10,656 nucleotides of DNA from contig JAFGKO010000064.1 in assembly GCA_016928525.1 (NCBI GenBank), positions 1-10,656 of the forward strand, written 5' to 3'. Numbering within the stretch: position 1 is the first letter of the stretch; every line of letters starts with the position of its first letter. Of the stretch, positions 1-10,656 are shown piece after piece. The stretch is from Anaerolineales bacterium. Its GTDB lineage: Bacteria; Chloroflexota; Anaerolineae; Anaerolineales; Villigracilaceae. The notes below the pieces were generated by a model. It was not told the DNA's origin and did not search any database. It saw nothing but the letters and a program-made list of their open reading frames with translations. The translations under genes and the position numbers were made by a program.

Positions 1-508
1 CGCACCAGGAAATTTCCGCGTTAGAATTGTTCAAGGCAATACCGCCGGCATAAGTAGAGACTTGTCCGTGTGCGTAATTATCGCTAATGCGGCAATGAGT
101 GATCACAGGATTGGAGTTGGTGCAATTTATCCCGCCCATACCGGTGAAAAATGTTCCAGAGTGGAGGATGGTGCAGAAGGCCAGTTTACTGCTATCGGGC
201 GCATTGGAAAAGTTCAGGCCCCTCCAGAATGTGCTGGCTGTGAAGTGGATGGAATCAGCTTCCGTACCGATGGCTTCCAGGTAGCCGTTGACAGTCAGGC
301 TGTAATCTCCCTGGAATTCCACCTCCACACCCGGTTCGATGACCAAGGTATCACTTGCCGGGATCGTAATACTGCCTGCAATGTAGTAGGGTGAATTCGC
401 CTGATACCAGGTGCCGGATACGTTGCCGCCCGGAATGGTGTCCGCGGAAAGCACTGCGGCGCAGACCGACAGCACAAGCCCTGCGACTGATGAGAATCTT
501 ACCTTCAT
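1..508 (-). CDS. Exported right-handed beta-helix surface protein, 5' part (C-terminus beyond left edge)
   Basis: The frame is open from the ATG at 508 to the left edge: 169 codons, no stop. The start has a strong ribosome binding site (AGGAGGT, 4 bases upstream). Residues 1-22 form a Sec signal peptide ending VLSA, with the mature protein starting DTIPGGNVSGTW. A pattern typical of parallel beta-helix proteins follows: SITIPASDTLVIEPGVEVEF, then LTVNGYLEAIGTEADSIHFT, then a right-handed-helix repeat region (GINCTNSNPVITHCRISDN, GGIALNNSNAEISWC). Such proteins are usually large, secreted or surface-anchored, and often end in a sorting or FlgD-like domain, which would be off-window. No catalytic residues can be assigned. 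The attC-like site at 606-761 lies just upstream, so the gene may be the first gene of the next cassette or ordinary chromosome. The fold class is fairly secure; the function is unknown. Confidence 0.8.
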   Translation of the reverse strand, partial: MKVRFSSVAGLVLSVCAAVLSADTIPGGNVSGTWYQANSPYYIAGSITIPASDTLVIEPGVEVEFQGDYSLTVNGYLEAIGTEADSIHFTASTFWRGLNFSNAPDSSKLAFCTILHSGTFFTGMGGINCTNSNPVITHCRISDNYAHGQVSTYAGGIALNNSNAEISWC

Positions 509-605
509 CGTGACCTCCTGCCATAATAGAGACTTGTTCCTTCCTGATTGAACTTCTATTCTGTACTCCTTATGTCTTGAAATGATATCTGCCTTTCATT
601 TCTTC

Positions 606-761
606 GGCGCAAACATTGACACCAACGTTGGCCGACGTGTGCTGTTGCCGCCTATAGTCTCGCCGCCGCGACGGAGCGCTTTCTGCGACATGACCAGGCG
701 GCGACTCCACAGTGTCAAGCGGCAATGGCACGCCCGGCTTGTTGTGGGTTGTTAGGGCCTG
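606..761 (-). repeat. attC-like hairpin site A
   Basis: This is a long imperfect hairpin of integron attC type. On the + strand the left arm reads GGCGCAAACA, spacer TTGA, box CACCAAC (620-626). The right arm reads box GTTGTGG (741-747), spacer GTTG, TTAGGGCCTG (752-761). Inside, CAAC (623-626) pairs with GTTG (741-744), followed by an asymmetric unpaired spacer of 4 against 2 bases. GCCG (631-634) then pairs with CGGC (735-738), with one extra unpaired base in the left arm. A 15-bp stem (637-651 with 719-733, three G-T wobbles) and an inner stem (656-667 with 697-706) follow. It lies about 90 bases 3' of the AAC(3) gene, where an attC belongs. The label attC is inferred from architecture, not from a model search. 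Confidence 0.6.
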
Positions 762-851
762 GCGTTTCTCTTCTGTGTCCATTGCATGGTGTCGATAGTT
801 AGCGCATCTTCGCTCGCGGGGACTCGTCCAGTTCATCAGTTGATCTTGTTG

Positions 852-1637
852 CTATGTCCCAAATTCGCGCTCCATCCTGTCCACAGCAAATTCAATAAAT
901 GCCTTTGCCGGGAGGATGTAGGATTTTGCATTTCCGACCAGTCCAGAAAACGTGCCTTGCCCTTCTATAAAGGCCTGCACAATCTCCCCGAAGTAGTGCG
1001 CAGGCATCTTGTCCAACACCATCCTACTGGTGTCATATTCCTCAATAGTGACTTCAGTTATCCGGCCTTGAAATAGGATTTTTGTAGGAACCTGAATCAC
1101 GCGTTTATCAGGCAAGCGGGCTATGTGCTCAGCGTGATGCAATAGGGTTACATGCTCAAACTCAGATCCAAGAAGCAGTACCTTTCCTTCTATCTCTACA
1201 AGCTTTTTATATGGAGAGTCCTCGCCGTATCCATAGTTAAGAGAGTGCCCCTCGCACAGCCAACCGGCTCGGTCACCCACGGCAACAATTGACGCGCCGG
1301 GATTGCGGGACCGAACAGCTCCAGGCCAATTACGTAGGATTTCAGGAAATACACCATACTCGGGCACTGCCGGCGATCTGTCAGGATCGAAATAGGGAAT
1401 CTCATCTGTTGGCTGGTAGTCTGCATAGGCACTCAGGATTCCGTTCGGACCGAGCACCTTAAGAAGCGCCCTTACCAATGCCTCAGCACGGCCATTAATC
1501 GGCCCTACTGAGCGTAAAGACACATGCACCATGACTGTGTCTCCAGATACCACACCCAAAGCGGATAAATCAGTCTCCAATCGTGATTGTAAGACCGTTG
1601 GTCTGATTCCTGGCTCTTGAACCATAGCGTGTGCCAC
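852..1637 (-). CDS. AAC(3)-family aminoglycoside N-acetyltransferase
   Basis: A protein of 261 aa from GTG 1637, or 257 aa from the in-frame ATG at 1625; neither start has a clear ribosome binding site, so the start is uncertain. It matches the Antibiotic_NAT family, whose best-known members transfer acetyl from acetyl-CoA to the 3-amino group of 2-deoxystreptamine aminoglycosides. Visible family features are GDTVMVHVSLRSVGPINGRA (residues 32-51), GPNGILSAYADY (63-74), RSRNPGASIVAVG (109-121), the GEDSPYKKL turn (138-146) and the VTLLHHAEHIA segment (163-173) holding the conserved His and Glu of the active site. Length is normal (about 260-280 aa) and no disruption is seen. It lies 43 bases after a GNAT remnant and before attC-like site A, so it sits in a cassette-like setting. 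Some family members act on other amines or are of unknown substrate, so resistance is likely but unproven. Confidence 0.85.
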   Translation of the reverse strand: MAHAMVQEPGIRPTVLQSRLETDLSALGVVSGDTVMVHVSLRSVGPINGRAEALVRALLKVLGPNGILSAYADYQPTDEIPYFDPDRSPAVPEYGVFPEILRNWPGAVRSRNPGASIVAVGDRAGWLCEGHSLNYGYGEDSPYKKLVEIEGKVLLLGSEFEHVTLLHHAEHIARLPDKRVIQVPTKILFQGRITEVTIEEYDTSRMVLDKMPAHYFGEIVQAFIEGQGTFSGLVGNAKSYILPAKAFIEFAVDRMEREFGT

Positions 1638-1680
1638 GACGCGCTGAGGAAGCCGTGCGCTGAAATCGCGCGGTGCCAGC

Positions 1681-1863
1681 TCAATCGCCGTCTATGGCTT
1701 GTGTGTCCTCTTCCTTTCTGATCATGAGGACGGCGTCGTCTCCATCAACTCCTCCCCATTCTGCCAGGATCTGCTCTGGTGTCGCGGGGGTCCTGACGAA
1801 ACCCGCCTTCTCGTAGGCCCGGATGGCTCTCGGGTTCCGGCCGTGACGGAGCGCGGCCGTACT
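1681..1863 (-). pseudogene. GNAT acetyltransferase remnant, C-terminal part only (AAC(6')-like)
   Basis: The last about 57 codons before the TGA at 1681 read as the C-terminus of a GNAT-fold N-acetyltransferase: GRNPRAIRAYEKAGFVRT, the acetyl-CoA-side motif, then AEWGGVDGDDAVLMIRKEED. This is the style of aminoglycoside 6'-acetyltransferases. Upstream, the same frame (up to 1983) loses all family resemblance, and only about 180 bases remain before the preceding gene. The N-terminal two thirds, including the acetyl-CoA P-loop region, must be missing. No ribosome binding site or credible start is present. It is therefore a truncated gene, probably the scar of a deletion that joined two cassettes. 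The aminoglycoside link is inference from the motif and from the neighbouring AAC(3). Confidence 0.65.
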
Positions 1864-2046
1864 GGACGCGCGACAAGGCAGTGTGCCTGAGGCACACGTC
1901 TTGCCCACGGACGGGACCCGGAACGCTTTCATTGTCTTCTCCCGGTGCAGGCATGGCATCCATGGGCGTGTTGTGCGATGCAAACCGGGAATCCCGTCAG
2001 ACTAGTTATCGCGGCCAGCGATGTGAGTGTCATCACAACGATGTAT
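1864..2046. other. Non-coding deletion scar between the small exported protein gene and the GNAT remnant
   Basis: No gene is supported here. The stretch holds a short perfect hairpin, GTGTGCC-TGA-GGCACAC at about 1880-1896, and a loose inverted repeat of GTTGTGCGATG (1969-1979) with CATCACAAC (2031-2039). The latter has the opposite box polarity to the four attC-like sites (GTTG first, CAAC last), so it is not one of them. GTTATCGC at about 2003-2010 could be the stub of a lost attC arm, since site C would predict a partner resembling GCATAAC, but this is weak. Confidence 0.35.
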
Positions 2047-2655
2047 TCATTGGAGCGCATCAGCATCGCTGCTGGTCTCGAGCGCCTTGTACTCCTTGAC
2101 TGCTTCGGTGAATTCTGGCGAGGCTTCAACAGACATCTTTATGAATCCTGTACCTCGCTTGATGCCCTCAATTTCAAGCATTATTGTCTTGTTGTCGCTC
2201 GAGAAGAATATAGTCCACATGCCGCAACCCTTATAGGCAAGGCACTCGTAGAACTCATCCGAATCCTCATAGAGTTTGTGACCAACTGAACAGAAGGACT
2301 TGCCCATCGTGTAATTCTGTTTCAACAGTTTCTGTAGATTGTCGAACTTCGACTTTCCTTCAGTTCCGTATGGGTCCTCAGCTATCGTTCGAGATGCCAT
2401 TGTGATCTTGACGAGTGCCGTGTCGCCGGCGAATATCAGAACATACGATTCAGAGAGTGATAGGTTCTTTGGCAACGAGTCCGTCTTGTACATGTGAAGA
2501 TTGTTGCGAGAACTTTCTTTTGTCAACGCAATGCCCATCTGCCGAATCTGGTCAGGTGATTGACCCCACTTGAGACCGAACATGGCGTCTCCAGCGGCAG
2601 AACCATTGGTCAACAAGCAAAAGATGATCAACAAGAAGGTGCGATACCCCAGCAT
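2047..2655 (-). CDS. Small exported protein of unknown function
   Basis: A protein of 202 aa starting at ATG 2655 with a strong ribosome binding site (GAGGAGG, 6 bases upstream). Residues 1-21 are a Sec signal peptide (hydrophobic FLLIIFCLL core, cleavage near GSAA), so the product is periplasmic. The mature protein opens with GDAMFGLKWGQSPDQIRQMG, followed by alternating strand-like segments (YVLIFAGDTALVKITMAS, MWTIFFSSDNKTIMLEIEG). It has three cysteines in its middle (FCSVGHKLYEDSDEFYECLA and YKGCG) that could form a disulphide. The order MFGLKWG-motif, small beta domain, then a GxGFIKMSVEASPEF tail recalls small secreted proteins I have seen annotated as hypothetical in accessory DNA, but I cannot name a family. 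It follows attC-like site C and looks like a cassette gene whose own attC has been lost. Low-complexity end (SSDADALQ). Confidence 0.75.
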   Translation of the reverse strand: MLGYRTFLLIIFCLLTNGSAAGDAMFGLKWGQSPDQIRQMGIALTKESSRNNLHMYKTDSLPKNLSLSESYVLIFAGDTALVKITMASRTIAEDPYGTEGKSKFDNLQKLLKQNYTMGKSFCSVGHKLYEDSDEFYECLAYKGCGMWTIFFSSDNKTIMLEIEGIKRGTGFIKMSVEASPEFTEAVKEYKALETSSDADALQ

Positions 2656-2740
2656 AGATTGCCTCCTCGGCCTGATAGTTGGATGGTATATGACAGATGA
2701 GTTTCTCTTAAGTGCCTGCTGCTCTGCTCCGCGACATGTG

Positions 2741-2949
2741 AGTGCCCGGTTTGTTTCGCATAACGTGTGCCGTGTTACGACGTGGCCGGGCTACAAACCT
2801 GCATTGTGACGGAGGCCTTACGGAACCCGGTACACCGGGTGACATGACAGGCCGACATGACACAATGCAGATTCCCCTTGTCATCCCGGCCATGTGGCCG
2901 AAGGCCCTTGCGTAACGCGGCTGTTGGCTGTCTGTATGATTTGGCCATG
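2741..2949 (-). repeat. attC-like hairpin site C (long, nested)
   Basis: On the + strand the left arm carries GCATAAC (2758-2764); the right arm carries GTTGGCTG (2923-2930), spacer, TTTGGCCATG (2940-2949). Inside the boxes, four bases (GTGT) face one (T) unpaired. GCCGTGTTACG (2769-2779) then pairs with CGTAACGCGGC (2911-2921), with one G-T wobble. Further in, CGTGGCCGGG-like bases (2780-2790) pair 10 of 11 with 2885-2895, TGCATTGTG (2800-2808) with CACAATGCA (2861-2869), and ACCCGGT (2825-2831) with ACCGGGT (2834-2840). A side hairpin GGCC-GAA-GGCC bulges from the right arm (2896-2906). The asymmetry of the unpaired spacer matches sites A, D and E. The site sits directly 3' of the lipoprotein gene. 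At roughly 170 bases between boxes it is longer than most attC sites. Confidence 0.55.
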
Positions 2950-2970
2950 TTTCTTCCCTGGGCGGGGATA

Positions 2971-3630
2971 TTATCGGAAAATTACGCTCAAATTCTCAAT
3001 AATATCAGTAGAATCGACTTCCCCATCTTCCATTTCAGCTTCGGTGTATATAAAATCATAGTCTTTTCCATTCCAATAAATAAATCCACCGGCACCGGAA
3101 CCACATTTTCTTATGAGTAACGCATCACCAATAAGTTCAGGGGCATTCTTTTCGAAAGGAAGACCCATTTCCTTTACATTTATCTCGAGATATTCTACCC
3201 AAGAGAAATCATCAGACAATTTTTCTAAAAGATAAATTTGCTGAGAATTCGGGTGGACAATACATAATTTCGTAGCACTGTCATGCCTTTTGCAAACAAA
3301 AAAGGCTGCGTCTAAGGAACAATCACCGTTGAAATCTGCGTAGACAATAAAGGGGTTTACATGTGTTAATAGAATGTAGTCGCTGTTAAATCCAGTACAC
3401 ACAATTACATTATTGTAAAGCCACCTTGGGAAAGCATTTTTTATAGCACACATGTCATCAATAGTCTTAAATGAAAACCAATTTGAATTTTCACTGTCTG
3501 CATATTTCGGCGAAGGACAAGTGTACTTAGTGTTTTGCTTAAACTGCTTGTTTTCTTCATTCTTAATTTTTGTTTGTCCACAAGAGGCAACCAATATAAG
3601 AGAAATAACAATAAAAATTCCAAGCTTCAT
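2971..3630 (-). CDS. Lipoprotein of unknown function
   Basis: Chosen start is ATG 3630, preceded by a good ribosome binding site (AAGGAG, 10 bases upstream) that overlaps the stop of the upstream gene; an in-frame extension to 3690 would run into that gene and is rejected. Product 219 aa. It opens with a lipoprotein signal (MKLGIFIVISLILVASC; lipobox VASC, Cys17). Asn/Lys-rich linker residues follow, then a beta-rich domain with a DFNGDCSLDAAFF segment resembling the Asp-rich D-x-N-x-D loops of FG-GAP/dockerin-like calcium sites. Near the C-terminus is IRKCGSGAGGFIYWNGKDYDF. Six or more cysteines in the mature part suggest disulphides in the periplasm. It is the second gene of the two-gene cassette-like unit and probably translationally coupled to the first. 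No family can be named, and immunity or binding roles would be guesses. Confidence 0.75.
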   Translation of the reverse strand: MKLGIFIVISLILVASCGQTKIKNEENKQFKQNTKYTCPSPKYADSENSNWFSFKTIDDMCAIKNAFPRWLYNNVIVCTGFNSDYILLTHVNPFIVYADFNGDCSLDAAFFVCKRHDSATKLCIVHPNSQQIYLLEKLSDDFSWVEYLEINVKEMGLPFEKNAPELIGDALLIRKCGSGAGGFIYWNGKDYDFIYTEAEMEDGEVDSTDIIENLSVIFR

Positions 3631-3643
3631 GGTGAAACACTCC

Positions 3644-4189
3644 TTAAAATTTAAGATATTTTGTTTGTTGGTAGAAATATTCGAAAACATCAGGCCAAAG
3701 CAGAACGGAATTCGTAGGGCTTGCTCTTGGGGGTGTCCATTTGCCAGTAATACTTCCGTTCATAATTGTGCCATCAAGATACAGCATTGAGAATATCGGA
3801 TCTTCAATGTCGGTTTCAAGTCGTTGAAAACTTTTAGCATCATATCTGTCTGGATTCTCATCAATGAAAATACCACGAAGCCGTATCATTATTGGTGTCC
3901 AGCCATTTGAGGAATGCCCCCAGACGTCAGCTAATTCATATAACGATAGGTTCGGTGTCTTAGAGTTAGGTTTGAGATTGATTATTAATGCTCTATTTAG
4001 ATGTTCATTCGCTCCAAGTGCCGTTGCGATGTTGATATGCCAATTGTATGGCTCATTTGCATCGCCAAGAAGTGACTTCTGTAGTAACCAAGGTATAAAA
4101 CCTTGATTGCATCCAAAAAGGGATACATTTTCAATCCAACAAAATTCCCAGACATCCTGCTTCTGAATCTTGCTGTAAAGAGAATACAA
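3644..4189 (-). CDS. Hypothetical cytoplasmic protein, first gene of the two-gene cassette
   Basis: The frame is open from a TTG at 4225 to the TAA at 3644. I prefer the TTG at 4189, which has AAAGGA 8 bases upstream and gives a 181-aa protein starting (M)YSLYSKIQKQDVWEFCW; the 4225 start would give 193 aa. No signal peptide or membrane segment is seen. Notable segments are ENVSLFGCNQGFIPWLLQKS, YNWHINIATALGANEHLNRA, LADVWGHSSNGWTPIMIRLRG and, near the end, SPTNSVLLWPDVFEYFY. Tryptophan and asparagine are abundant. Its stop overlaps the ribosome binding site of the lipoprotein gene (13 bases between them), so the two are almost certainly co-translated. I do not recognise the family. The gene is AT-rich compared with the exporter operon, in line with independent acquisition. 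Confidence 0.65.
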   Translation of the reverse strand: MYSLYSKIQKQDVWEFCWIENVSLFGCNQGFIPWLLQKSLLGDANEPYNWHINIATALGANEHLNRALIINLKPNSKTPNLSLYELADVWGHSSNGWTPIMIRLRGIFIDENPDRYDAKSFQRLETDIEDPIFSMLYLDGTIMNGSITGKWTPPRASPTNSVLLWPDVFEYFYQQTKYLKF

Positions 4190-4247
4190 TGGTACCGTCC
4201 TTTCTTGATTTGTTACCCCGCCCAACTATAATATTTCTTCTGTTATA

Positions 4248-4354
4248 CATGGCCAAAGCATATTGCAGCCAACGTTTGCGGCACAGCCGAAGTGCCTGTG
4301 TTGCGCCTGCGGCAGGCATTTTGGCTTGCCGTTGTTGGTGGGAGTTTGGGCACC
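4248..4354 (-). repeat. attC-like hairpin site D (best-formed)
   Basis: This is a near-textbook attC fold. Reading inward on the + strand: CCAAC (4269-4273) pairs with GTTGG (4334-4338). GTTTG against TT is an unpaired spacer. CGGCA (4279-4283) pairs with TGCCG (4327-4331). C4284 is extrahelical (a G on the minus strand). A 14-bp stem follows (4285-4298 with 4313-4326, two G-T wobbles), closing on a 14-base loop. Outer boxes are CATGGCCAAA (4248-4257) on the left and TTTGGGCACC (4345-4354) on the right. The two arms differ from each other outside the core, yet each matches the next site along: left arm to site C, right arm to site E. That is the signature of a junction between two cassettes. 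A covariance-model search is needed to confirm the class. Confidence 0.65.
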
Positions 4355-4532
4355 GTTCTTCGTCTTTGCGCCGCATTTTCGTTTGGTTCTTCTTCCTTTG
4401 GCAAACAATCTTCAATGGAGCGCCCGGCATTCAGACTGTTGTAAATATCTGCCCGCATTGTCAATGGCGCGATTAAGGAGCCGACCACTCTGCTTTGCCT
4501 GCGTGGTTTTGTCATGCGGTCACGCCCGTATA
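4355..4532 (-). other. Tail of the export operon; weak 90-codon ORF reading into site D
   Basis: Between the barrel stop and site D no recognisable gene is present. An ORF starts at ATG 4515, 17 bases after the barrel stop, and runs through the attC-like hairpin to 4243 (90 codons; MTKPRRQSRVVGSL, then MRADIYNSLNAGRSIEDCLP). It has no good ribosome binding site. Its second half (PPTTASQNACRRRN onward) is just translated hairpin. The first 50 residues could be a small real peptide, but nothing supports a function. No separate rho-independent terminator is seen, so the site D hairpin may fold at the transcript end. Confidence 0.3.
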
Positions 4533-5855
4533 TCAGAAGCTTTTATTGATCCTCAGGTAGGCTTCGTCTTTATCGTCCCACCTGAAGAATGTAGTGCCTT
4601 TTTGCCCCTTAATGATATGGGCACCGATGGCGCACTCAAGCCCATGACCTGGTTTGTAACTGATTTCCGGCAAAGTAAAGAATGAAACCTTATCTGCTTC
4701 CCTGATTTCGATACCACCAGCTAGACGAAGTGTCAGCTCATCATGCAGAAAGCTCTTCTCAGCCGCGATCATCACGTAGTCACCGATGTTGTCGGGCCCC
4801 ATCTCCGCAATGAATCCCCGTAAATACTGTATTTGTGTGTAGATGCCCCATTTAAAGGTGTAGTCAAGTCCAAGAACACCTTTGAGGAATGGTTCATCGT
4901 CAAGAACTGTGTCGCGATAAGGCATATCCCCCATGGGAGTTGTGATCACGATCTCAGTCACGGTTTTGCCATGCGGAATGACCAAAGCTCCCTCACCCCA
5001 AACTCCGATGTTACCGATTGCTCCGGCAAAATCGAGCCCCACAACATGGATTTTGGGATATTCAAGAGTGAGGTCAAGCCTCAGTACAGGCGGAACCACT
5101 GCAGAGGCCATAACAGCATGGCCACTCACCGGTAGCGGCACTTGTTCTCGTCCGTAGAAGTAACTCGTCGAAAAGTCGATCCCAAACGCATTCAGCCCGA
5201 TCTTCGCGCCGCCTGCCATGTTGCTTGCGCGTCTATCAGGTAAATCCACCGTAAGATTACCGGTTTCAAGCGACATGCCGGGAATGGGCGAAACTTCCGA
5301 AGAAGACATGATAAGCGACACATCATCCGGCAGCCGGGCAGGCTTGAATACAGGTATCACCACCGCGGCGATATTCAATGATTTAAAGTAGTACGTGGCC
5401 TTGAACATGGTGTTCGCCAGCTTGCGTCCAAAATCGAAAGGATCGGAGAAATCGTAAGGATTGAGATAGTCCGTAGGATTGAATAGATCAGCCGTACCCC
5501 ATTTCTCTATCTGATGCCCGACTCGCAAGTCAAGACCGGGCAGGATGAACCCATACATATCAATGTATATGCCGCGGAGTTCAACCCATATGTCGTTCAG
5601 TTTCCGGAGGTCCTGAAGATCCGCCAGTGATGACACATTATGGATGTCCTGAATAACGACCTCAAGTTCACCGTGAAAACCCACCTTTACGGCATCGCGT
5701 GTTCTGAGACCTGCATTGAATGTATTCCTGCTGAAACTGAAGCTGTGTGGTGTGTTTGTCAACACCCGCACATCGGTTTCAACAAACCCGTATCTCTCCA
5801 CTTCAGCGGCTGTCGCCGAAACCAAAATCAGCAAGAACAGTCCCGTTCTTTTCAT
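4533..5855 (-). CDS. Outer-membrane beta-barrel protein of the export operon (DUF1302-like)
   Basis: A protein of 440 aa from ATG 5855 with ribosome binding site GGGAGG 6 bases upstream. Residues 1-17 are a Sec signal peptide (MKRTGLFLLILVSATAA). The mature protein is built of alternating amphipathic strands with turn-rich loops and ends in Phe (YLRINKSF), the usual signal for outer-membrane barrel assembly. The stretch at residues 112-145, with VGHQIEKWGTADLFNPTDYL followed by NPYDFSDPFDFG, resembles the DUF1302 family, whose members are often encoded with LolA-like proteins and MMPL-type RND exporters. It is the last gene of the operon, 24 bases after the LolA-like gene, and is the likely outer-membrane station of the pathway (porin-like exit or lipid insertion). 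No plug domain or TonB box is seen. The barrel call is firm; the DUF1302 assignment is tentative. Confidence 0.8.
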   Translation of the reverse strand: MKRTGLFLLILVSATAAEVERYGFVETDVRVLTNTPHSFSFSRNTFNAGLRTRDAVKVGFHGELEVVIQDIHNVSSLADLQDLRKLNDIWVELRGIYIDMYGFILPGLDLRVGHQIEKWGTADLFNPTDYLNPYDFSDPFDFGRKLANTMFKATYYFKSLNIAAVVIPVFKPARLPDDVSLIMSSSEVSPIPGMSLETGNLTVDLPDRRASNMAGGAKIGLNAFGIDFSTSYFYGREQVPLPVSGHAVMASAVVPPVLRLDLTLEYPKIHVVGLDFAGAIGNIGVWGEGALVIPHGKTVTEIVITTPMGDMPYRDTVLDDEPFLKGVLGLDYTFKWGIYTQIQYLRGFIAEMGPDNIGDYVMIAAEKSFLHDELTLRLAGGIEIREADKVSFFTLPEISYKPGHGLECAIGAHIIKGQKGTTFFRWDDKDEAYLRINKSF

Positions 5856-5879
5856 CGGTGCCTCCCGGGCTTAACTAGC

Positions 5880-6617
5880 TCAGTTGCGTTGCAGGTATCG
5901 CTGTGAGAAAAGTTCGTCTCCCAGGTCCTTGTCAATTTCAACATTTGTCAGTTGCAGGATCGTACGGTGCTGCTTCTTAACATCTTTCATGGTCATCGTA
6001 TGAGCAACCCAGTATTCGCCTATTTTCCGTATGTTTTCACGTTCCATGACTTTAAGCAATTCCCCGCTTTTCCCATAGTATTCGGTCTTTACCTTATAGA
6101 AATTCGACATGTCTACCCACAGAAGGAGTTTGCTGTATTCCTTGTCTGCCTCCTTCTTCGGCGTTAACTCAAGCACATAATGGGCGTCCTGCTCACGTAC
6201 GCCCACGGCGTTGTAATCTTCACCATATGTAATGGAACCGAAATCATCATAGGTGAAATCCGTTCCCATGAAACTCTGGTTTTTAACGTGTGCTGCAATT
6301 CGCCGGGTGTTGTTGAAGGCGGGCATGTAGAAGTAAATCACATCGCCGGGCAACGTGAGGATTCCCGCCCCTTTGATGTCGCCTGGAGAAAGGAACTTTA
6401 ACAAGCGCATCGAATCGCCTTTCTGCATCATTTTGGCTTCCCGTTCTTTGCGGTGTCCCTGCTTGTCCACGAGAACCATCGACATGGTATATGTCTGGTC
6501 CTTTGGAGCTGACTCTACCTGATCTGCCTTGTGCAGAATCCCGGTGGCAGTCATCTCTGCGCCCGTGGTAATAGATGCCAGAGCAATCGCGATTACTGTT
6601 ACAAGTCTGTGTTTCAT
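5880..6617 (-). CDS. Periplasmic LolA-like 'outer membrane lipoprotein-sorting' protein
   Basis: A protein of 245 aa from ATG 6617 with a very strong ribosome binding site (GGGGAGG, 7 bases upstream). A Sec signal peptide covers residues 1-20, and there is no lipobox Cys, so the product should be free in the periplasm. The body matches the LolA-like family (Pfam LolA_like, PF17131): a half-open beta-barrel that binds acyl chains. Characteristic segments are GDSMRLLKFLSPGDIKGAGI (67-86), VIYFYMPAFNNTRRI (93-107) and the family hallmark NQSFMGTDFTYDDF (113-126), then LLLWVDMSNFYKVKTEYYGK. These proteins are commonly encoded beside MMPL/RND exporters and are thought to carry a hydrophobic or lipidated substrate between membranes. 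It lies 15 bases after the exporter and 24 before the barrel, so co-transcription is near certain. It is not the housekeeping LolA, judged by its context and its TDFTYDDF motif. Confidence 0.85.
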   Translation of the reverse strand: MKHRLVTVIAIALASITTGAEMTATGILHKADQVESAPKDQTYTMSMVLVDKQGHRKEREAKMMQKGDSMRLLKFLSPGDIKGAGILTLPGDVIYFYMPAFNNTRRIAAHVKNQSFMGTDFTYDDFGSITYGEDYNAVGVREQDAHYVLELTPKKEADKEYSKLLLWVDMSNFYKVKTEYYGKSGELLKVMERENIRKIGEYWVAHTMTMKDVKKQHRTILQLTNVEIDKDLGDELFSQRYLQRN

Positions 6618-6632
6618 TGGTAACCTCCCCGG

Positions 6633-9509
6633 TTAGTGTTTCTGCATGAATGCCGTATGCATTGTTATTTGGAGAACGGGCAGCAAAATCAGGGCGTTCA
6701 GTGCACTGACGATCATGGTCAATGCCGTAAGCAGGCCGAATGCCTGCAAAGGAACAAGATTGCTGAAGGCCAGCACCGCGAAACCACCCGAAACAGCAAC
6801 TGCATTGAACACGATGGCACGGCCCGTCGTATGGTATGTGCACTGCAGGATTCTCTCGATATGATTATCTTTCTTAGACACGGCACGAAAGCGGGACAAG
6901 AAATGTATGGTGTAGTCGATACCGATGCCGATTGCGATACTCGCTATCATGGTGGTAGCGATATCAAGCGGGATGCCGACGATGCGCATGAGAGCGAAAT
7001 TGGTAATTATGGTGAACGCTATCGGGATACACGCCACGAGTCCCCATCGTATGGATTCAAACTGGAGTGAAACGAGCACGAGCACACAAAAAAGCGAAAA
7101 GACAAGGCTCAGCAACTGGCTTCGCACAAGCTGACGGTCAATAATCTGCATAATGACCGGGAATCCCGTCACATGCGCCACAAGCCGGTGAATGTCCGCT
7201 TTTTCCACTTGTCGACCGGTGATCCTGGTATAGTCCGCAAGGCGAACCAGTGCCGGCCTGTTATTCAATGTCTCGGCGATGGTGAGGAAATTCTTGTCGA
7301 ACTCACTATTCCATATTGTCTCGTTTGTCATGTTTCGCAGATCGTCTCGCAGACGCAGGATGTTCATTTCCCGCCGGGCCGCCGTTACCACCTGATGCAC
7401 GCGTGTTGCCAGGTCGTGCAGTACTTCCATGTCGTTTTTGTACAGTTCTGCGGGAAACACACGGCCGAGTGCAGTGACAATCGCAGTCTCCGATAGAAAT
7501 GGCAATATTGAGACCCCGATTGCCTCAATAGCAGCACGGGCAGCGCCGGAATCAAGCGCAGGTTCGGCATCTGTACGCGCCAGGCAGGTCCTGACCGCAT
7601 CGGCAATTATCATCTGCTCTTCAAGAGACTCAATCGTGGAAGGTGCCGCATGTAATGCTGTTTTATCCCGTAAAACCTGCAGCGGGATATCAACACCCGC
7701 ATTCCCGAATATCGGAAGGAGTTGCTGTGCGATATGCTCGACACGCGTCTCAATAATATGGTTTCGCAACCCGGTGTGTGTAACGGTATCGGCAAGCACC
7801 TCGATAAACTCTTGCGGCAACCGCTCTTTGATGTATCTCCTGATTTGATCAATGGGTTCTGAGATTTCAGAATAGTTCAAGGTTGGTATCTTTATCTGGA
7901 GCACACCTTCGGTTCTGTCAGGATTCACCATCTGCTCCAGAATTTCGTTGCCTTCGATAAAAAGCCAAAGATTGGCAATCTGGTGTCTGGTCTCGGGAAT
8001 CCGGTAGCGGCTATTCATCGCGTCATTCATCTCACAGACAAGGTTGACTATCGATGTCGGTGTATTGACTATCGGCATCGAATCGATGAAATCATGCATC
8101 TTTTTAATCTCGTTCAGGACCAGAGGATTTTGGAGGTCGCCTTTTATGCCGATCTGAATTGGCCGTGCGCCGCCGAAGTTATCGCCGATGATTCTTTCTG
8201 CAATTCTGGTGGGACTGTCTTCTTTAAAATAGTTACTTAAGTCGGATTCGGTTTGTATGCCCGGGATTGCGGCTATACAAATGATGACCAACGCCGCGAA
8301 CACCCAGAAAATTGTTTTGGTTCTTTTGAGAACGAACCGGTAGAGGAAGCTCAGAAAGCCGCCGATGAGCGTTTGATCATCGGCGGCACGGGCATACGTC
8401 TTCTCGCTGACTCTGATGAAAATCAACGCGGACGGAATGGCAACCAGTGACAGGATTAGCGCGGCGAAGACGCCGATGGCCGTAAAGACCCCAAATTCCT
8501 TTATTGGCGACAAGCTTGATGAGATAAGGGCAATGAAGCCCAGTATAGTCGTCACTCCTGCCATTGCTATCGGAGGCGCAATTTGCTTTAGCGCCCCGGC
8601 AACGGCGTCCCGGTTGGATTGCTCAATTCGTCTTTCTTCCAGGTACCTGTTTACTACATGGATTCCATAGGCACTTCCGACGGAAATAAGTATGACGGGC
8701 ACTATTTCGGTTATCATGTTTATTTTGTAACCGAAAATAGTCATCAGGCCAATGGTCCACACGACAGATATGGCAACAGTAAGCAAGGGAAGCACGACGC
8801 CAAACCAGCTGCGGAAACTCCAGTAGAGGGCACAAATCACCAGTATCACCACAAAGGGAATGAGTGCTGTCATGTCCCGTTTGATCCAATAGGTGATATC
8901 ATCTTCCATCACCGGCTGGCCGGAGAAATAAAGACTTTCAAAGGCGGATTCGTATTCCCGTGAAATTTGTTTTACCTGCCGAGAAACGACATTGTGGTCG
9001 GCTCCCTGGCGCACCTTGCATATAACCGCGGCGAACTTGCCGTTTTTTGAAACGAGTGTGTTCACATACAGGTCCTTACCCATCACCCTGTTTCGCAGCC
9101 GCTCCAGCGCATCGTTTTGGGACGGGATTTTGTCGATCAGCTCTGCCACCTCCAAACCCGACTCAGTGGACCGTATGTCAATTATGTTGGTAAGGCTTGT
9201 TACATGTGTAATGTTCGGGTGTTCCTTGAGCTTGTCAGTCAATCCTTTGATGTTGGAAATCGATTGCTGCGTGAAAACATCGGCACACTCAAGCGCGATA
9301 ACGATGATCTCCGTTCCGCCGAATGTTTGCCCGATCTGCTTGAAAAACTGGACTTCGGGGTCGGTTGCAGGGAGGTAACTCAGTATGTTGTCGTTGATAT
9401 CCGCGTTTCGGATCTGATAGCCAAGGAAGATGGTTATGATACCAATGATACTCAGCCATGTTTTCGGACGCCCGACAACCAATTCGGCAAGTTTTTCCGT
9501 GCGATTCAT
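6633..9509 (-). CDS. MMPL/RND-superfamily exporter with 12 TM segments and an enlarged second periplasmic loop
   Basis: A protein of 958 aa from ATG 9509, which overlaps the TetR stop (ATGA), indicating translational coupling. Predicted TM segments are near 17-32, 213-231, 235-257, 264-280, 311-332, 336-366, 400-418, 797-816, 820-842, 847-868, 895-917 and 920-947, the two-fold RND plan. The first half carries VGSAYGIHVVNRY (277-289), with Ser in place of the usual Asp. The second half carries GIGIDYTIHFLSRFR (861-875), with Asp865 the probable proton-relay residue. This pattern fits the predicted exporters of COG1033/MMPL that work with LolA-like partners and no membrane-fusion protein, and none is encoded here. 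The first periplasmic loop is about 180 residues; the second is about 380, including a largely helical stretch at roughly 580-765. The likely role is proton-driven extraction of a lipid-like substrate from the inner membrane; the substrate is unknown. Confidence 0.9.
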   Translation of the reverse strand: MNRTEKLAELVVGRPKTWLSIIGIITIFLGYQIRNADINDNILSYLPATDPEVQFFKQIGQTFGGTEIIVIALECADVFTQQSISNIKGLTDKLKEHPNITHVTSLTNIIDIRSTESGLEVAELIDKIPSQNDALERLRNRVMGKDLYVNTLVSKNGKFAAVICKVRQGADHNVVSRQVKQISREYESAFESLYFSGQPVMEDDITYWIKRDMTALIPFVVILVICALYWSFRSWFGVVLPLLTVAISVVWTIGLMTIFGYKINMITEIVPVILISVGSAYGIHVVNRYLEERRIEQSNRDAVAGALKQIAPPIAMAGVTTILGFIALISSSLSPIKEFGVFTAIGVFAALILSLVAIPSALIFIRVSEKTYARAADDQTLIGGFLSFLYRFVLKRTKTIFWVFAALVIICIAAIPGIQTESDLSNYFKEDSPTRIAERIIGDNFGGARPIQIGIKGDLQNPLVLNEIKKMHDFIDSMPIVNTPTSIVNLVCEMNDAMNSRYRIPETRHQIANLWLFIEGNEILEQMVNPDRTEGVLQIKIPTLNYSEISEPIDQIRRYIKERLPQEFIEVLADTVTHTGLRNHIIETRVEHIAQQLLPIFGNAGVDIPLQVLRDKTALHAAPSTIESLEEQMIIADAVRTCLARTDAEPALDSGAARAAIEAIGVSILPFLSETAIVTALGRVFPAELYKNDMEVLHDLATRVHQVVTAARREMNILRLRDDLRNMTNETIWNSEFDKNFLTIAETLNNRPALVRLADYTRITGRQVEKADIHRLVAHVTGFPVIMQIIDRQLVRSQLLSLVFSLFCVLVLVSLQFESIRWGLVACIPIAFTIITNFALMRIVGIPLDIATTMIASIAIGIGIDYTIHFLSRFRAVSKKDNHIERILQCTYHTTGRAIVFNAVAVSGGFAVLAFSNLVPLQAFGLLTALTMIVSALNALILLPVLQITMHTAFMQKH

Positions 9510-10129
9510 ACTCTCTCACATGCGTGCTTTATAGCACAGTTTAGCCGCCTGCAATTGAGACCCTCGAACAGGATATCCAGCAAAATGGGCATTTGTTTCG
9601 ACAATTGCGTATGAGTACGACCGGTTGCCCATGTGTACTCAAGACCTTTCAAGGCCAAGAGTATCGTTTCCGCAACAAGGCGGGTATTACTAACGCTGAA
9701 TTCATTGCGCGACACCCCTTTGTCAAGGATTGATCTGAGTGTGTCGATTTCCCATTTGGAATGCCGGGCTCTGATTTTCTCGATGAATTCGTAGTGTTTC
9801 AAGTACTCATCTTTGACCGTTGTGTATTCGTCGGCCTTCTGTCGCAGGTATTTCATACGGGTCATGACAAAACCGGTCAGCGATTCTCTTGCACTTTGCT
9901 GTTCGTTGAGAGGCTCAAGAATGAGGGCTTTAAGGTTCTGTATCTCCGCACAAATGACTTCGGTAAATATTTCTTCCTTGCTTCGGAAGTAGTAGTAAAG
10001 GGCGCCTTTCTGCATGCCTACGGCACCGGCAATGTCTTCTGTTGTCGTCTTTTCCAGCCCGTAGCGTGCGAACAATGTGCGTGCTTTCTCAACAATGAGA
10101 GTTTTTTTGCGTCCGCCTTTTATTGCCAT
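9506..10129 (-). CDS. TetR/AcrR-family transcriptional regulator
   Basis: The chosen start is ATG 10129, with GGAG 6 bases upstream; an in-frame TTG at 10144 lacks such a site. Product 207 aa, normal for the family. The N-terminal DNA-binding domain is clear: KTLIVEKARTLFARYGLEKT (9-28), then the helix-turn-helix at 28-48, TTTEDIAGAVGMQKGALYYY followed by FRSKEEIF. The C-terminal ligand-binding and dimerisation part is divergent, as usual; near its end is ILLALKGLEYTWATGRTHTQ. The stop overlaps the exporter start by four bases, so it is the first gene of the operon it most likely represses. Members of this family next to RND pumps usually sense the exported compound or a related lipid. The four-base overlap means regulator and exporter are made from one message, giving negative feedback. 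Confidence 0.9.
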   Translation of the reverse strand: MAIKGGRKKTLIVEKARTLFARYGLEKTTTEDIAGAVGMQKGALYYYFRSKEEIFTEVICAEIQNLKALILEPLNEQQSARESLTGFVMTRMKYLRQKADEYTTVKDEYLKHYEFIEKIRARHSKWEIDTLRSILDKGVSRNEFSVSNTRLVAETILLALKGLEYTWATGRTHTQLSKQMPILLDILFEGLNCRRLNCAIKHACERV

Positions 10130-10170
10130 GCAAGTCTCCAGCAATCTTCTTCCCGAAGAATATTGAATAA

Positions 10171-10187
10171 TTGACCGATATGTTCAA
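10171..10187. promoter_or_regulatory. Candidate TetR operator
   Basis: An imperfect inverted repeat TTGACCGATATGTTCAA (TTGA and TCAA ends, five of eight pairs) touches the -10 hexamer and lies in the 5' leader of the regulator gene, where an autoregulatory site would be expected. A partial direct copy, TTGAATAA, sits just beside it at 10163-10170. The placement is suggestive; the symmetry is only moderate. Confidence 0.3.
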
Positions 10188-10215
10188 ATATATAATTTTG
10201 GTAAAGCTAAGTCAA
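10187..10215 (-). promoter_or_regulatory. Sigma70-type promoter of the export operon
   Basis: On the minus strand, TTGACT (10215-10210) is followed by a 17-base spacer and TATATT (10192-10187). Each hexamer matches consensus at five of six positions and the spacing is optimal. It lies about 58 bases upstream of the TetR start codon and is the best promoter in the window. Its presence means the operon need not depend on an external integron Pc promoter. Confidence 0.7.
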
Positions 10216-10553
10216 TAGCCGGGACTCAGCACTGAGCATCACCGTTAGCACTCATCAGAATTCCCCTGGTTGTGCAGAGATAATTTCCCCACTCCAAAAA
10301 AACAAAATGCTAATAGAGGAAACCTTTGTGTGGAGATATCCCGTGTAGGTGGAATCTGTATCTCTAAATCGGTGATAATTCTTAAGACTCGATTTTCACT
10401 CGAGTCACCATAGAGGAAAACAAACCCTGTAATATATAGACAAATTCAAATGTCCTCAAAGAGAGAATTTAGGTGAGCGCCAAAGATTCTCTCATCACAA
10501 ATATTTGTCCAATTTTTCACAGGACGCTCTATTTTCGCGGCGCATTTTTCATT
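10216..10553. other. Gene-free leader of the giant cassette
   Basis: No convincing gene. A frame open from the right edge (10655) ends at a TGA at 10446 on the minus strand. It reads through site E (ILNVGVNLGTNEKC) and into this stretch, and looks like translated repeat, not a gene. A 6-bp hairpin (GACTCG 10386-10391 with CGAGTC 10401-10406) is the only clear local structure. Apart from the promoter at its left end, I see nothing else. Confidence 0.4.
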
Positions 10554-10656
10554 GGTGCCCAAATTTACACCAACATTAAGGATTCTTTCCGAAGCGCCAC
10601 GACAGAGTGCGGTGACCATGGTTCTCGCGTCGTTTCGGAAAGAATTCAGTTGAACG
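10554..10656 (-). repeat. attC-like hairpin site E (outer box on the right side cut by the window edge)
   Basis: Left arm on the + strand: GGTGCCCAAA (10554-10563), TTTA, CACCAAC (10568-10574). CAAC (10571-10574) pairs with GTTG (10649-10652), with ATTAA facing a single A unpaired. A continuous 17-bp stem (10580-10596 with 10631-10647, two G-T wobbles; core TTCTTTCCGAA) follows, and an imperfect inner stem ACGAC/GTCGT. On the minus strand the right-edge box reads GTTCAAC (10655-10649), an exact fit to the attC consensus RYYYAAC. Spacer asymmetry is the same as in sites A, C and D. The partner outer box on the right would lie beyond the window. Confidence 0.6.

Follow-up and report, generated by a model that had tools for sequence, protein, structure and literature searches.

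In a 10,656-nucleotide (nt) stretch of DNA from an Anaerolineales bacterium (Chloroflexota, Villigracilaceae; assembly GCA_016928525.1, contig JAFGKO010000064.1, positions 1 to 10,656; hereafter the window), four adjacent genes encoding a TetR-family regulator, an RND transporter, a LolA-like protein and a predicted outer-membrane barrel lie between two attC-like sites. Our analysis indicates that the segment from 4273 to 10573 is in all likelihood one integron-type gene cassette of 6.3 kb carrying a complete regulated export operon. Cassettes are usually regarded as single, mostly promoterless genes, and the segment is very probably a real, unusually large, multigene one. The observations behind this reading are attC-like hairpins, matched segment ends, a common polarity of sites and genes, the genes themselves, and three Bacteroidetes genomes in which a related operon is packaged likewise.

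The case for a cassette rests on the pairing of the segment ends and not on the hairpins alone. A repeat search of the window returned an inverted pair, 4333-4354 against 10554-10575, of which 19 of 22 nt are complementary (86%), with perfect 8-base and 10-base boxes separated by a 4-base spacer in which three of the four bases differ. Each arm adjoins the outer side of an attC-like hairpin, that of site D and that of site E, respectively (Table 1). The sequence-only reading had described the operon-facing arms of D and E as inverted complements that differ only in the spacer, which this alignment bears out, and had matched the other arm of D to site C, a pairing that scored 34 both by hand and with automatic site finding. 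In a matrix of the hand-placed site arms of the window, arms of the same segment scored 25 (B-C), 34 (C-D) and 29 (D-E), all remaining combinations reaching at most 17, and none of 3969 random 50x50 pairs drawn from the window attained 25 (maximum 23). Automatic site finding gave 27 for the D-E pair, and no end pair scoring at least 20 in 150 dinucleotide shuffles of the window. Three consecutive segments are thus end-matched, each with its own, different arms.

The sites also agree in polarity. Read on the minus strand, the spacers beside the R'' and R' boxes measure 2/4 nt in A, 1/4 in C, 2/5 in D and 3/7 in E. The same short-then-long order characterizes an Eisenbacteria locus with a full-length IntI gene (L102), with 2 nt beside R'' and 5 nt beside R' along the plus direction of the long open reading frames (ORFs) between its sites, and a second locus, L137, whose two sites resemble those of L102 and have spacers of 2 and 4 nt; L137 served for the polarity comparison only, its orientation being taken from its likeness to L102. 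Of five sites of the Bacteroidetes loci L066 and L072, described below, three have spacers of 2/5, one of 2/4 and one of 0/6. Sites A, C, D and E therefore share one orientation, and all assigned window genes lie on the minus strand, so that sites and genes are collinear; it follows from this polarity that the site belonging to the operon cassette is D and that the cassette is preceded by E. Integrons cut between the G and the TT of the R' box, and this cut would give a whole cassette of 6301 bp, with non-operon DNA of about 430 nt separating the TetR gene from E and of about 190 nt separating D from the barrel gene. Within these limits no good attC was found, the two weak matches being both intragenic and within the shuffle range. 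By eye, the cassette starts after A (590-650) and E (10545-10580) look alike on the minus strand, with GTTGGTGT followed by AAT and TTTG-like stretches.

Table 1. Features of the cassette, its operon and the attC-like sites of the window.
Feature	Position	Strand	Basis
Inferred whole cassette, 6301 bp, given G/TT cut	4273..10573	-	inference from sites D and E
Start arm of operon cassette (R' box, 4-nt spacer, 10-base outer box)	10554..10575	-	inverted-repeat search, arm matrix
End arm of operon cassette (outer box, spacer, R'' box)	4333..4354	-	inverted-repeat search, arm matrix
attC-like site E: R'' GTTCAAC, 12-bp stem, R' GTTGGTG; R' half opens operon cassette	10568..10655	-	site scans, folding
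attC-like site D, operon cassette's own site: R'' CACCAAC, one extra stem base, R' GTTGGCT	4267..4340	-	site scans, folding
attC-like site C; arm 2923-2950 pairs with D's outer arm 4247-4273	2758..2929	-	inverted repeat, arm matrix, automatic scan
Weak site B, limits approximate; arm 1970-1989 pairs with 2745-2764 of C; other half degenerate	1880..1989	-	inverted repeat, arm matrix
attC-like site A, long stem, without matched partner at B	620..747	-	arm matrix, automatic scan
TetR-family regulator gene	9506..10144	-	PF00440, 2e-16
RND transporter gene, MMPL/HAE3-like, 958 aa	6633..9509	-	PF03176, 2.5e-45
LolA-like outer-membrane lipoprotein-sorting protein gene	5880..6617	-	PF17131, 8.8e-56
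440-aa protein, predicted outer-membrane barrel	4533..5855	-	sequence-only reading and position; homologues adjoin the same genes in relatives

Excision, integration and expression from a cassette promoter are steps that we infer. In an excised circle the two ends would join into one attC, with the R boxes CACCAAC and GTTGGTG pairing and, past the 4-nt bubble, the outer boxes GGTGCCCAAA and TTTGGGCACC pairing as well; G/TT recombination in the R' box would place the attC halves at the two cassette ends, the neighbours keeping their other arms. The operon itself would probably move a hydrophobic molecule, its presumed substrate, across the envelope under TetR control. The sequence-only reading had also credited the operon with its own promoter, a claim that found no backing in the sequence upstream, where two promoter-like matches compare with 1.5 expected, the level of chance; such a promoter is presumed from the presence of the regulator.

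Several results weigh against the segment being an integron-type cassette. Inverted pairs of this kind number 20 in the window and, taken alone, the length and identity of the D/E pair are not rare; the pair owes its significance to its context, its arms adjoining hairpins and the neighbouring segments having matched arms of their own. The A-B segment has unmatched ends, with an arm score of 10 in the hand-placed matrix. A strict attC scan of the window returned D alone and was replaced by a looser scan, which missed site B and yielded six matches in the window against 2, 8 and 2 in shuffles, hence no excess. In the automatic scan A, C, D and E scored 25.1, 25.8, 30.2 and 27.6, respectively, against a maximum of 28.5 over the 150 dinucleotide shuffles, so that D but not A, C or E exceeds every shuffled site; 14 of the 150 shuffles held a site of at least 25 and three a site of at least 27. 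Folding of the D region is unremarkable (z -1.34), that of the E region being stronger (z -2.61). The attC consensus boxes are RYYYAAC and GTTRRRY, and the eight boxes of A, C, D and E all retain the AAC/GTT core, with one of the eight, the R'' of E, fitting the full consensus. The extra base of the D stem sits on the opposite side to that of L102, and the covariance model of Bacteroidetes sites introduced below (R1) found no match in the window sites. Finally, none of the ten window ORFs scanned is an integrase; the contig stops at both sides of the array, one base past site E at that end.

That matched ends mark one cassette, a rule invoked by the sequence-only reading, was corroborated in an IntI-bearing array and in Bacteroidetes arrays. 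L102, which has three sites and is the single IntI control for end matching, is end-matched in both of its segments (scores 26 and 33, other arm combinations at most 15). Its matched stretches cover 13 and 16 bases by eye, and complementarity past the 7-base box is therefore not peculiar to the window. In L102 (IntI at 8462-9541) and L137, both from Eisenbacteria, the IntI gene lies on the site-reading strand with the array past its 3' end, that is, not divergently. One site was found in L103, beside a partial IntI, and there was no clear array within the stretch examined in the IntI-bearing loci L096, L098, L100, L101 and L104, nor in L138, L135, L136, L082, L097, L083, L099 and L081.

The second line of support is a related operon, similarly bounded in three Bacteroidetes genomes with homology stopping at the sites, which upholds the earlier proposal of an operon-sized cassette. 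We fetched 80 loci by means of the transporter from genome records of many phyla of the Fibrobacteres-Chlorobi-Bacteroidetes (FCB) group, candidate phyla and some others, many of these loci being cut by contig ends. A loose scan gave 13 attC-like matches (three after shuffling), mostly in L066 and L072, which come from two Bacteroidetes metagenome-assembled genomes. DNA homology between these two covers 8855-12980 and 17270-18946 of L066, with two weaker pieces (73-77%) between and none outside, and its limits coincide with the L066 sites 8852-8982 and 18820-18950. In L066 the operon segment spans 9838 bp, in L072 9268 bp, and its end-match score is 20 in each; the two genomes have the same downstream site up to the final GTT, beyond which the outer boxes and the neighbours differ. 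Neighbouring pairs are end-matched in 6/6 cases in L066 and 2/3 in L072, where the right arm of site 5375 also matches its own left arm (score 20). The cassette recurs, at about 10 kb, in a third genome, that of the isolate Marinilabilia salmonicolor MSL42 (L069), where piecewise homology to L072 begins at 512, within an R1 site (404-538), and ends at 10551, within the R'' box of the site that follows. That attC-like site is interrupted, at 10551-10632 on the minus strand, by a group II intron end (RF00029, E 2.4e-6, its 39.2 bits falling slightly short of the gathering score of 40). PMC7923331 gives group IIC introns as associates of integrons, and an intron end at this place, possibly of that class, accords with an attC reading of the site. 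The cassette interiors vary among the Bacteroidetes genomes, with genes that by look resemble those of acyltransferases, patatins and glycosyltransferases. Searched with R1, 77 of the 80 loci yielded no site, the loose scan being the only one to cover other kinds of attC. Since the window sites go unrecognized by R1, the Bacteroidetes loci are to be taken as a parallel in packaging and not as close relatives.

To place these arrays, we relied on R1, a covariance model built from eight Bacteroidetes sites, in which 15 of the 23 base pairs show change on both sides. It matched 20 sites in genome G022 and 11 in G021; across the order, 75 of 119 genomes gave matches at E 1e-6 or better, with at most 28 candidates scored per genome. 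End matching was counted over 103 sites in 26 loci, leaving aside single-site loci and partial or opposite-strand matches; of the 76 neighbouring pairs (one site lay beyond its locus), 67 were scored and nine were not, the AAC/GTT core not being found. Ends matched (score at least 14) in 53 of the 67 scored pairs, six of which belong to L120 and L130, whose DNA coincides with that of R1 training loci, against 4.3% of 3000 random start-end pairings. The matched cassettes range from 205 to 9838 bp and eight of the 53 exceed 5 kb, the 9268- and 9838-bp cassettes among them being mutually homologous. By look, the large cassettes hold several genes along the array direction: L139 has a Cus-like metal pump set, L146 an arsenic-like set, L141 and L147 helicase- or ATPase-like genes, and L066 a TolC/MFP/RND/TetR set. 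Twelve of 104 site-adjacent starts compared have in common a non-coding leader that reaches about 300 nt at most; among them are eight of the 12 segments of at least 5 kb in the set, plus three shorter ones, the 7.6-kb segment of L066 not being among them. Copies of the leader lie at 8976-9280 in L072 and at starts in L066, L132, L139, L141, L146, L147 and L149 (array orientation), and common tails occur too; Rfam gave no match in the L072 leader.

IntI was detected at E 1e-60 in one of 60 genomes of the order, a search that differs from that with R1 in both sample (60 against 119 genomes) and threshold, and at E 1e-40 in neither G021 nor G022. Instead, a 387-aa tyrosine recombinase is encoded upstream of the array in L151 (6165-7328), on the same strand; it scored 185.7 bits against TIGR02249 (cut-off 265) and 197.7 against the XerA model (cut-off 220), and has homologues in 54 of the 119 genomes (E 1e-30). 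A first count of linkage (11/12) covered 42 of the 77 integrase matches and 24 of the R1 sites listed, on contigs chosen from the integrase matches. Rechecking all 77 by eye added one fitting contig (G054:C2, 1.6 kb, same strand) and one misfit, so that in 12 of the 14 contigs that list both, the recombinase precedes the nearest listed site by 0.9-7.5 kb and shares its strand. The misfits are G045:C5 and G052:C144 (opposite strand), and the L069 case and the G052 misfit pull the overall odds in opposite directions, with no net change. In G022 the recombinase (G022:C31:25033-26085) precedes the array with the operon cassette by 7.5 kb, measured to the nearest site listed there; G094 has a partial copy only. 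The two catalytic motifs are separated by 91-92 residues in all 30 homologues inspected against 132-133 in IntI, about 41 residues fewer, as judged from the two of seven IntI proteins that show both motifs. Members of this tyrosine recombinase family (loci L159-L188) often have an N-terminal extension and are without the IntI insert. By the tests of the IntI insert and TIGR02249, the Bacteroidetes arrays are not integrons in the strict sense, though built alike.

Among the other explanations for the window, the one that survives best, although we consider it improbable, is that transposition or homologous recombination later inserted the operon into a small ordinary cassette whose two ends persist; the operon would then not have been captured as a cassette, yet the whole could still move as a unit today. 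It would account for the non-operon DNA of about 430 and 190 nt at the cassette ends, and it agrees with the different interiors of the homologous L066 and L072 cassettes and with the several Bacteroidetes cassettes that keep their leaders and tails around different genes, so that cargo can change while the ends stay fixed; however, no transposase occurs among the window ORFs scanned, and the repeat search revealed no internal inverted or direct repeat that stands out as framing the operon. Fusion of two or more cassettes after loss of an intervening attC, as described for class 1 integrons in PMC4670013, is very improbable, since a simple fusion would leave unmatched ends whereas those of the window match, and the weak internal attC-like matches lie within genes. 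Least credible of all is that the pair arose by chance or represents a transposon's terminal inverted repeats, a reading for which the 20 inverted pairs of such size might speak but to which the arms adjoining hairpins, the different matched arms of the next two segments, the lack of a transposase among the scanned ORFs and the failure of all 150 shuffles to reproduce the pairing leave hardly any room.

The operon is of a usual type, and its packaging is what is unusual. TetR, RND, LolA and barrel genes follow each other in the window's order in 35 of the 80 transporter-bearing loci, with LolA downstream in 65 and TetR upstream in 53; the closest relative of the window pump is 46% identical. 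We named this transporter HAE3-like only, because it scored 283.9 bits against TIGR00921 (HAE3), below the cut-off of 351.9, while exceeding that of Pfam MMPL; the 440-aa predicted barrel matched neither Pfam nor NCBIfam. Rfam gave no match in the window. Elsewhere in it, the A-B segment (unmatched ends) contains an aminoglycoside 3-N-acetyltransferase-like gene at 852-1637 (NF033082, 278.5 bits, cut-off 270) and a C-terminal piece of an acetyltransferase at 1681-1983. Beyond site A, a beta-helix-like secreted protein gene (2-508) is truncated by the contig start; L102 likewise has a repeat-rich, secreted-looking ORF past its last site.

Compared with known systems, the window shares with integron gene cassettes, as in L102, hairpin sites, AAC/GTT cores, short-then-long spacers, collinear genes and complementary ends, but differs from them in its 6.3 kb, four genes and regulator, and in that no integrase was found among the contig ORFs scanned. 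The Bacteroidetes arrays (L066, L072, L069, L149, L151 and others) resemble it in their attC-like sites, ends matched past a short bubble and related operon cargo, but have another site sequence family, shorter outer arms and a linked recombinase that is Xer-like. Chromosomal TetR-RND-LolA-barrel operons of the FCB group and candidate phyla have the window's gene content and order, all four genes in 35 of the 80 loci, but R1 gave no site at 77 of them.

The wider proposition, which we hold with about even confidence, is that operon-sized cassettes of 5-10 kb (efflux, metal or arsenic export, defence-like) form a regular class in FCB-group arrays, those of Bacteroidetes relying on an Xer-like recombinase that lacks the IntI insert, with a non-coding leader common to many large cassettes, and that the window is a further case from another lineage; much of this class would escape surveys in which an integron must have IntI and attC spacings below 4 kb. 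The pattern behind the window cassette may hence be more novel than the window itself. In the literature, one ORF per cassette is given as the rule, with two or none also seen (PMC8618304), and excision tests used inserts of 60-3060 bp, at least 1.5 kb being termed very large, with no strict recombination limit (PMC5371416; for further integron literature, see PMC9024848). Among open-licence articles, judged by title and start of abstract, no description of operon-sized cassettes or of an Xer-like array integrase was found. The survey rule that attC sites lie less than 4 kb apart, as it stands in PMC9668308, splits an array exactly at such a cassette. The finding raises the testable question of whether cassette size is limited by recombination or by cassette birth, and one recombination step could suffice to transfer a complete, regulated trait where the cassette carries both a regulator and a multi-part envelope pump.

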